From: Mariniblastus sp. | GTDB taxonomy: Bacteria; Planctomycetota; Planctomycetia; Pirellulales; Pirellulaceae | Direction: 5' to 3' | NCBI GenBank assembly: GCA_028823415.1 | Contig: JAPKBL010000001.1 | Coordinates: 1 to 64,000 of the forward strand | DNA length: 64,000 nt | Part shown: positions 43,055-45,146 of the stretch, piece after piece | How positions within the stretch are numbered: position 1 is the stretch's first letter | Layout: every line of letters begins with the position of its first letter | The notes under the pieces: model-generated | What the model was told of the DNA's origin: nothing | Seen by the model: only the letters and a program-made list of their open reading frames with translations | The model's database searches: none | Made by a program: the position numbers and the translations under genes

Positions 43055-44608
43055 TTATTCATACTTCCATTTGAGTATCCAAGGATCCTCCAACTTCCGC
43101 TGCTTCGCCTTCATCTTTCCTTGATAAGTTTTTAGCAACTCGGCAAACTCTGGCTTGCCGGCAAGGTTATACGCTTCATCCGGATCATTCTTCATATCAA
43201 ACAATTCAAATTCTGGCCGGTGAATATACTGCCCGACCGTCTTTAATCCATAAGGCGCATCCTCTCCTTTGAGAAACTGTGCCTGCCAACTTGAGGCCGC
43301 CCAAAGATCTGAGGCGAAGGGGTAGTCAAGCTTATAAGCGATATTCCAGATTAACTTATAGCGCTCATCCTGAATGACGCGCATCGGATAGTACATCTGA
43401 ATCTCATGAAAAGTGTGGGATGCAAAAATTGAATCCCAATGATCAACTTCTGGGCCTGCAAGACAATTCAGCCACGACTTCCCTTGATAGCTTCGGAATT
43501 TATTGCCACCGCTCCGATTGTCCTTAGCAAACAGCTCTTTTTCCTTCCAGTATTTATCCGGATCGACCCAATCCTTGGGACCGTTTAACTCGGGGTCGAG
43601 GCCACCGGCAAAATCCAGCAATGTGGGCGCAATGTCGATGTGACTGATCATCGCCTCGGAGACAAAACCGCGTTGTTTTTCGTAGGGGTTTCGAACCACA
43701 AACGGCACTCGCAAACCGGGTTGATAAACTGTCGTTTTAGCACCGGCGAAAGCCATCCCGTGATCAGCCGTAAACACGATCAACGTTTTGTCGTAAACGC
43801 CTGCCTCTTTTAAAATGTCAACAAGCCTTCCCAGCCCTTGATCAATCCGAGCACAGGACTGGTAGTACTGAGCAATTTCAGAACGCGTTTCGGAGGTATC
43901 AGTCAGAAATGGCGGCACAGTGACCTTGTCAGGATCGTAAAATACTTCCTCGACCCCAGGATAAGAACCTCGCTCCGGTTTATTCCCAAACAGGTCAGGC
44001 TTGAGCTTCAACTTGGAGGTCTTATCGATCCCGCCACCTCGGTGTGGATCCGAGGTTCCGAAATACAAGAAAAATGGCCGATCATCAGAGCGGTCCGAAA
44101 TGAAGTCTCGACACTTCTCTGCCATCTCCACAGCACTTCTCGCATTGCCACGCAAATAGGTTTCGAATCGATAAACAGCCTCGGGGCCGACATGATATTT
44201 CCCAATGTGGCCCGTTCGATAACCCGCCTTAGCCAACACTCGTGGCAGGGCAAGCGACACAACGTTGTGGTAGGAATCAAACTTATGGAAATGATGCTGG
44301 TGACCGTACTGCCCATTTTTGTGATTATGCAAACCCGACATCACGACGGATCGACTTGCACTGCAACTTGCGGTCGTCGCGTAGGCGCGATTAAACACAA
44401 CACCGTCCTTGGCCAGTTGATCAATGCAGGGGGTCGCAGCCAGAGGATCACCGTAACAACCAAGCGTAGGACCTTCATCATCGGTAATGAAAAACACGAT
44501 ATTTCGGTCTGCCGGCTCGGAAGCCGTAGCTGGCAACCAACCTGCCCCAAGGAACAGAAACGCAAAGCTCCAAACGAGGCAACTCACACCACAGTTATTT
44601 AAATTCAT
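43055..44608 (-). CDS. secreted sulfatase, N-sulfoglucosamine sulfohydrolase-like
   Basis: The 517-residue product begins with a signal peptide (LVWSFAFLFLGAGWLPATAS). The metal site is ITDDEGPTLGCYG, and C82-S-A-S-R86 is the formylglycine motif (CxxxR form with Ser in place of Pro). The sequence SGLHNHKNGQYGHQH after it and IGKYHVGPE are typical of heparan N-sulfatase (SGSH)-like enzymes in family S1. I chose the ATG at 44608, not the upstream in-frame starts up to 44776, because the signal peptide begins there. It is divergent from the selenoprotein gene, with 190 bases between starts. Desulfation of an N-sulfated or related glycan is inferred. Confidence 0.9.
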   Translation of the reverse strand: MNLNNCGVSCLVWSFAFLFLGAGWLPATASEPADRNIVFFITDDEGPTLGCYGDPLAATPCIDQLAKDGVVFNRAYATTASCSASRSVVMSGLHNHKNGQYGHQHHFHKFDSYHNVVSLALPRVLAKAGYRTGHIGKYHVGPEAVYRFETYLRGNARSAVEMAEKCRDFISDRSDDRPFFLYFGTSDPHRGGGIDKTSKLKLKPDLFGNKPERGSYPGVEEVFYDPDKVTVPPFLTDTSETRSEIAQYYQSCARIDQGLGRLVDILKEAGVYDKTLIVFTADHGMAFAGAKTTVYQPGLRVPFVVRNPYEKQRGFVSEAMISHIDIAPTLLDFAGGLDPELNGPKDWVDPDKYWKEKELFAKDNRSGGNKFRSYQGKSWLNCLAGPEVDHWDSIFASHTFHEIQMYYPMRVIQDERYKLIWNIAYKLDYPFASDLWAASSWQAQFLKGEDAPYGLKTVGQYIHRPEFELFDMKNDPDEAYNLAGKPEFAELLKTYQGKMKAKQRKLEDPWILKWKYE

Positions 44609-44782
44609 TCCCGATCCCAAAACAAAAAAAGAAGTTGATGCGTCGCTAGAAAATTTTTCGCAACTGAGTATAAACGAGTTAACCAACAGATCCAACTTAA
44701 TTAGTTTTGAAAAACTTTCCTTCAAACCGTGGTGAAGGAGTCTGGAGCGCCGCGGTCTAGCCACAACACCAATCATTTATTT

Positions 44783-44789
44783 AGAGGAG
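44783..44789 (+). promoter_or_regulatory. strong RBS of the selenoprotein gene
   Basis: AGAGGAG lies nine bases before the ATG at 44799. It is one of the best ribosome binding sites in the window and argues that translation really starts at this ATG, although a TGA follows at codon 13. Confidence 0.8.
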
Positions 44790-44798
44790 TACTTTTCA

Positions 44799-45146
44799 AT
44801 GCCGAATGTAGACTGGAGTTATCACCGCCCTGGCTGAAAGACCTGTGTAAAAACGCAAGAGTTCCTTGCGAACGCCGGTGTTATCCCCAAGACCGAAACC
44901 AACGCCAAGAAAGAAACCTATCAAAAACAACAGGCACTCGAGCTTGTCGAGGCAGCAAGCCATCTGTTTGTCGCACGGGGAAAAAAAGTCGTCGAACTCA
45001 ATCTTAAAAAAGACGCGCCCACAGAAACCGAAGTTTTAAAGTTGATCCTTGGACCCACCGGAAACCTCCGAGCGCCAACGTTAAGATGCGGCAAGAAACT
45101 AATTGTTGGATTTAACGACGAGATGTATGAAGGTATCTTTGGTTAA
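44799..45146 (+). CDS. selenoprotein, ArsC/Spx-like thioredoxin-fold (Sec-x-x-Cys)
   Basis: Reading from the ATG at 44799, codon 13 is TGA (44835-44837) and the frame then stays open to TAA at 45144-45146, giving 115 residues. The local sequence is YHRPG-U13-K-T-C16-VKTQEFL, a Sec-x-x-Cys redox motif at the start of the first helix. The end, GNLRAPTLRCGKKLIVGFNDEMY, resembles the R-x-P...VGF region of ArsC/Spx proteins. C97 may be a third redox residue. A hairpin fitting a bacterial SECIS follows the TGA, and the RBS is strong. Other genes here stop at TGA, so a changed genetic code is ruled out. It is a probable reductase or thiol oxidoreductase; the substrate is unknown. selA, selB, selC and selD are not in the window. 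Confidence 0.85.
44845..44875 (+). promoter_or_regulatory. candidate bacterial SECIS element
   Basis: Directly after the in-frame TGA, CGCAAG (44854-44859) pairs with CTTGCG (44865-44870) around the loop AGTTC. GTGT (44845-44848) pairs below it with ACGC (44872-44875). The loop starts 22 bases after the TGA and has G as its second base, both within the known limits of bacterial SECIS elements read by SelB. This supports selenocysteine insertion at 44835-44837. Confidence 0.75.

Follow-up and report, generated by a model that had tools for sequence, protein, structure and literature searches.

A Mariniblastus gene with an in-frame TGA at codon 13 is very probably a selenoprotein gene of the ArsC-related family NF041106

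The interval 44799-45146 (+) of the window, by which we mean the whole 64,000-nucleotide stretch of Mariniblastus sp. DNA that was analyzed, is very probably a real selenoprotein gene and a further member of the catalogued family NF041106. We read its product as a small selenothiol oxidoreductase of the glutaredoxin/ArsC fold, in which UGA-13 would be recoded with SelB and Sec13 and Cys16 would form a redox cycle, and we place the probability of this whole reading at about 0.8. The preliminary description of this DNA had reported a single frame running from an ATG through a TGA at codon 13 to a TAA (115 residues), a ribosome-binding site upstream of the ATG, U-K-T-C at the TGA, and an R-x-P...VGF region in the C-terminal half; all of these were found at their places, with coordinates and translation in agreement. 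By direct reading, the 115 codons before the TAA include one in-frame TGA only, and with this TGA translated as Sec its protein context is H-R-P-G-U-K-T-C. The interval, a gene that ordinary gene calling would probably break, is now settled. Its features are listed here, with conservation counted over an alignment of 88 family sequences.

44729-45007, + strand: overlapping 92-aa frame with a GTG start, from the frame list, probably spurious
44785-44789, + strand: AGGAG, RBS-like, 9 nt 5' of the ATG (direct reading)
44799-45146, + strand: coding sequence of the ArsC-family selenoprotein, 115 residues, TGA as Sec, TAA stop included (NF041106 match)
44799-44801, + strand: ATG start codon (direct reading)
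44835-44837, + strand: in-frame TGA, codon 13, as selenocysteine (TGA in 77/88 sequences)
44844-44846, + strand: Cys16, presumed resolving Cys of U-x-x-C (88/88 sequences)
44854-44870, + strand: candidate bacterial SECIS apical stem-loop, CGCAAG / AGTTC / CTTGCG
45069-45077, + strand: R91-A-P93 (R91 in 87/88, P93 in 88/88 sequences)
45105-45113, + strand: V103-G104-F105 motif (G104 in 88/88, V103 in 81/88, F105 in 80/88 sequences)
45144-45146, + strand: TAA stop (direct reading)

When the TGA was treated as a residue, the protein matched the NCBIfam model NF041106, "ArsC family (seleno)protein", over its entire length (model positions 1-107 of 107) and, at 138.8 bits, exceeded the cut-off of 85. 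The 115-residue protein also exceeded the Pfam ArsC cut-off (38.6 bits; cut-off 24) and narrowly missed the gathering score of the glutaredoxin family PF00462 (20.7 bits; 22.9). The NF041106 family has been in print since 2008: a table of the ocean (GOS) survey of that year has a row "Arsenate reductase 2, UxxC" with 42 sequences (PMC2398784), a table of a 2026 review has a row "Arsenate reductase-like protein, NF041106, UxxC" that cites this survey (PMC13188914), and a row in PMC9312934 is similar to the arsenate reductase-like UxxC entry. Selenoproteins of two planctomycetes are described in PMC4807772, and two ArsC-like selenoproteins in the deltaproteobacteria Desulfotalea and Desulfuromonas are reported in PMC1794560. 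Our literature searches, which covered open-licence papers, found neither a biochemical study of the NF041106 family nor a paper on it in planctomycetes. As regards novelty, the earlier remark that ArsC/Spx-type selenoproteins are little characterized in planctomycetes has to be amended: the family was already catalogued, as the NF041106 record and the table rows in PMC2398784 and PMC13188914 attest.

The in-frame TGA recurs at the same codon in all eight relatives retrieved from other assemblies, which are metagenome-assembled genomes titled Pirellulaceae, Mariniblastus, Planctomycetaceae, and Planctomycetota; seven of these align over the full length with 64-90% identity, and the eighth (L008) ends at a contig edge just past the TGA. 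Because the TGA occupies the same codon in eight of eight relatives from other assemblies, chance or sequencing error is very unlikely; it is this recurrence alone that argues against a fault confined to a single assembly. Across the phylum, 112 of 392 genomes matched the family at E <= 0.001 and 80 exceeded the family cut-off, together carrying 81 copies above it. Exactly one TGA is present in 70 of these copies and none in the remaining 11, whose codon at the Sec position encodes Cys in ten cases and Asp in one (L069). An uncharacterized selenoprotein family is thus common in the phylum, being found in 80 of the 392 sampled genomes, of which 70 have a TGA copy. For the alignment, 94 loci were taken, 93 were read (L113 gave no match), and 88 were kept as 77 Sec and 11 non-Sec sequences, after removal of L008 (contig end) and of L109-L112, which fall below the family cut-off and have one TGA each. 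Position 13 in this set is encoded by TGA in 77 sequences (76 of them from assemblies other than that of the window), Cys in ten, and Asp in one, so that the search suggested in the preliminary description, for homologs with Cys at this position and others with TGA, returned both kinds.

Between Sec and non-Sec labels, the tree of the 88 sequences needs five changes, at least four of which are forced by well-supported branches, compared with a mean of 10.6 for shuffled labels; the tree was built from 117 columns, is poorly resolved, and does not give the direction of the Sec/Cys change. The simple reading of these sequences is that Sec and Cys (or Asp) would have been exchanged repeatedly within the phylum, and the Cys and Asp forms offer ready-made comparisons for finding out what advantage selenium brings. 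One genome, G045, carries two family copies, one with TGA (L083, G045:C5:56898-57212) and one with Asp (L069, G045:C12:140623-140940); the latter reads S-D-A-T-C at the Sec site and is perhaps a paralog with lost or changed activity. Among the matches below the family cut-off, L109 (G065:C1154) and L110 (G107:C1) resemble UxxC relatives, L111 (G223:C717) has C-K-R-T-U-T-C directly before its aligned part and is perhaps another ArsC-like selenoprotein form, and L112 (G018:C217) likewise has a single TGA.

TGA-containing copies co-occur with the selenocysteine elongation factor. Of the 70 genomes that carry a TGA copy, 68 have SelB, vs. 2 of 10 genomes with non-TGA copies only (Fisher p = 6.6e-8; G045, with its TGA and Asp copies, grouped with the TGA genomes), where presence was called from the best match per genome at our own threshold of E < 1e-70, weaker matches presumably representing EF-Tu or other GTPases. 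Four genomes depart from this pattern: G302 and G225, which are 79% and 84% complete and have a TGA copy and no SelB, and G150 and G135, which have a Cys copy and SelB. By the curated cut-off, SelB is present in 235 of the 392 phylum genomes. The source genome of the window (5.45 Mb in 265 contigs, 92.7% complete) encodes tRNA-Sec, i.e. selC (67.4 bits; cut-off 47), SelB (368.9 bits; cut-off 242.25), and SelD (262.9 bits; cut-off 125), and the absence of all sel genes, named earlier as a finding that would count against the proposal, is therefore not what the genome holds. Of the four genes whose presence had been proposed as a check, selA alone was not found in the source assembly, in which the best match reached 19.6 bits; this weak match, on contig C5, was rejected by eye, as the 417-aa frame there (L026) reads like a cysteine desulfurase. 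SelA scored over the cut-off in 9 of the 11 genomes searched (seven of the eight genomes of the named relatives, plus G353 and G307) and was missed in two, the source genome and that of relative L005. When the 4.3-kb selA locus of relative L114, flanks included, was used as the query, the source genome gave no match and all three other relatives gave strong ones. Because the whole 4.3-kb locus carried by the relatives is missing along with selA, the missing gene apparently reflects an assembly gap. A search of the source genome for the HU-like neighbor of selA, run without a positive control, returned nothing. In the source genome, SelD makes up the C-terminal portion of a 740-aa frame (L027, G000:C226:1-2615) whose N-terminal portion, judged by eye, resembles a pyridine-nucleotide oxidoreductase, and a frame similar to this one, truncated at the edge of L122, lies beside selA.

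The preliminary description had noted a candidate SECIS after the TGA, and such a hairpin is present. Its arms at 44854-44859 and 44865-44870 form the stem CGCAAG/CUUGCG around the loop AGUUC, which contains a G and starts 22 nt after the UGA; a distance of about 16-37 nt between UGA and loop is the rule for bacterial SECIS elements. A 58-nt segment taken from the TGA onward has a folding energy of -14.8 kcal/mol (z = -3.46), and none of 200 dinucleotide shuffles was as stable. Because the hairpin stretch is coding, synonymous recoding is the fairer control, and by this control the window copy gives z = -1.71 (p = 0.060), so that its own hairpin excess is only suggestive and becomes clearer across the family. 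The 77 Sec sequences have a mean z of -1.96 against synonymous recoding, with 66 below -1, vs. a mean of -0.74 and 2 of 11 below -1 for the non-Sec sequences (Mann-Whitney p = 7e-5); against dinucleotide shuffles, the means are -1.27 for 76 Sec and -0.71 for 11 non-Sec sequences. Since the non-Sec sequences also lie below zero (Wilcoxon p = 0.001), part of the folding excess is not due to Sec, and since the sequences are related and some are nearly identical, these sequence-based p values overstate independence.

Stems were then counted with nine register and loop choices per sequence at the place of the hairpin in the window. At least six contiguous pairs were present there in 39 of 77 Sec sequences vs. 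0 of 11 non-Sec sequences, and in all 39 a G stands at the first or second loop position; among the 38 Sec sequences without six contiguous pairs at that place, many fold into a hairpin placed elsewhere. Two-sided changes occur among the stems (CGCAAGA/TCTTGCG, GCCCAGG/CCTGGGC, GGCGATG/CATCGCC, and GGCCGACG/CGTCGGCC). Loop conservation alone is no proof, because the GUU in the loop partly follows the conserved Glu-Phe codons. A pairing count at fixed register was discarded, as it mixed two registers and read low (239/497 cells, or 329/497 with a one-base slide), and Rfam had no match for the hairpin.

Seven residues are invariant in all 88 sequences (R10, C16, A36, G85, L90, P93, and G104); Sec or Cys occupies position 13 in 87, and a basic residue (K or R) occupies position 60 in 82. 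Cys97 was considered as a third redox residue and rejected, Cys being present there in 6 of 88 sequences. An AlphaFold2 model built on an alignment of 60 of the 88 sequences (pLDDT 90.5, pTM 0.81) predicts the strand and helix order of a thioredoxin-like core, with a middle insert consisting of a helix (43-52), two strands (55-60 and 63-68), and a second helix (76-83). By sequence profile and fold, the solved relatives are Spx, ArsC-related proteins, and glutaredoxins. The model superimposes on Spx and ArsC-type chains with TM-scores of 0.48-0.57 and rmsd of 6.4-8.8 Å, and because these scores are no higher, the middle insert may differ from that of Spx and ArsC.

The selenothiol oxidoreductase reading is built on five observations: conservation of the Sec/Cys pair, the association of TGA copies with SelB, the hairpin, the Sec genes of the genome, and the confidently predicted fold; from them we infer Sec insertion, the location of the protein, its redox cycle, and the reductant and substrate. 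SelB and Sec-tRNA(Sec) would recode UGA-13, aided by the hairpin just downstream, to give a protein that is probably cytosolic. Given the fold and the conservation, Sec13 is the likely nucleophile and Cys16 the likely resolving residue, with Pro93 and R91 lying next to the active site; Pro93, by analogy with the fold family, is presumed to be in the cis form and near the active site. The Sec13 selenolate would attack an oxidized substrate, which R91 and the basic side chain at position 60 would help to stabilize; the invariant Cys16 would resolve the intermediate as a Se-S bond, and thioredoxin or a low-molecular-weight thiol would then reduce that bond.

Gene neighborhoods were compared at 87 loci, where L029-L057 carry about 1.5 kb or less per side. 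No conserved operon partner was found: among the best 12 clusters, the largest cover 14 of 87 loci each, and their six listed members all belong to family f20. Because no listed cluster covers more than these 14 loci, gene context gives no pointer to the substrate. A cluster with members at 11 loci spans several families, in varying places and strands. The closest relatives keep in part a divergent sulfatase, a downstream membrane protein, and an acyltransferase, which is ordinary synteny. The sulfatase frame in the window (43055-44776, - strand) has its listed start at 44776, and its true start is probably near 44608, where an internal Met begins a stretch resembling a signal peptide. At L034-L037, L040, and L047 (family f20), the six loci listed from an 11-locus cluster, a frame that looks by eye like BtuF, a cobalamin-binding protein, lies upstream of the selenoprotein gene on the same strand, with about 90 bp between the two.

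Several other readings bear on whether the UGA is decoded and on what the protein does. Were the UGA a real stop, the locus would either encode a leader peptide of 12 residues or be a decayed pseudogene, and the selA missing from the source assembly could be cited in favor; the frame beyond the TGA is nonetheless conserved at 64-90% identity in seven relatives, the TGA itself in eight of eight, 70 of the 81 above-cut-off copies in the phylum keep a single TGA, and TGA copies go with SelB, so that we regard a genuine stop as extremely improbable. As to function, a selenium-dependent arsenate reductase, in which Sec13 would attack arsenate and arsenic would be detoxified, agrees with the Pfam ArsC match, with the basic character of position 60 (82 of 88 sequences), and with R91, which we take to sit in the R-x-P motif of the ArsC fold family; the published names, as they appear in the tables of PMC13188914 and PMC2398784, say arsenate reductase-like as well. 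The arsenate reductase model TIGR00014 (arsC), however, gave the 115-residue protein 15.3 bits against a cut-off of 106.05, the invariant second Cys contrasts with the UxxS motif of the selenoprotein entered as arsenate reductase in PMC1088965 and PMC13188914, and no listed neighbor cluster exceeds 14 of 87 loci, although these clusters are unannotated and arsenic genes beside single copies are possible. We consider this reading unlikely.

Another reading is a Spx-like redox-switch regulator that would bind RNA polymerase with the Sec-Cys pair as its sensor. In its favor, Spx proteins head the Foldseek results and account for most of the closest sequence matches of known structure, and the Spx/MgsR model TIGR01617 gives the 115-residue protein 40.6 bits. 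That score is under the curated cut-off of 75.05, TM-scores to Spx chains are only 0.49-0.55 (rmsd 6.4-7.8 Å), and the modeled middle insert contains the strands 55-60 and 63-68, whereas that of Spx is helical; such a regulator we judge very unlikely. A further, tentative proposal, which we find possible though somewhat doubtful, is that the NF041106 proteins form their own branch of the ArsC fold, distinct in function and substrate and neither arsenate reductase nor regulator. The helix/beta-hairpin/helix insert (43-83) with its K/R-G-x-K would then replace the helical insert of Spx and ArsC, and the substrate could be, e.g., an oxidized low-molecular-weight thiol or a metalloid species.

Among known systems, the window copy is most like NF041106 (ArsC_rel_Se_1) itself, which it resembles over the full model, in the UxxC motif, and in having one Sec; we found no feature that separates it from the family. 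What is added here beyond the NF041106 record is the distribution in the phylum, the link to SelB, the hairpin, and the Cys and Asp variants. The Desulfotalea and Desulfuromonas selenoproteins of PMC1794560 are likewise described as ArsC-like. With ArsC (TIGR00014) and the Sargasso Sea UxxS selenoprotein, as entered in PMC1088965, the window protein has the ArsC fold and a Sec/Cys nucleophile in common, and it differs in scoring far below the TIGR00014 cut-off and in its invariant second Cys (UxxC, not UxxS). Spx/MgsR (TIGR01617) shares the ArsC fold, a CxxC that aligns with UxxC, and the R-x-P and V-G-F/Y regions, whereas the window protein is below the TIGR01617 cut-off, has Sec for Cys, and has strands in its modeled middle insert. 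Compared with glutaredoxin (PF00462), it has a longer middle insert and a score just below the cut-off, and the two are alike in the thioredoxin-like core and the C/UxxC active site.
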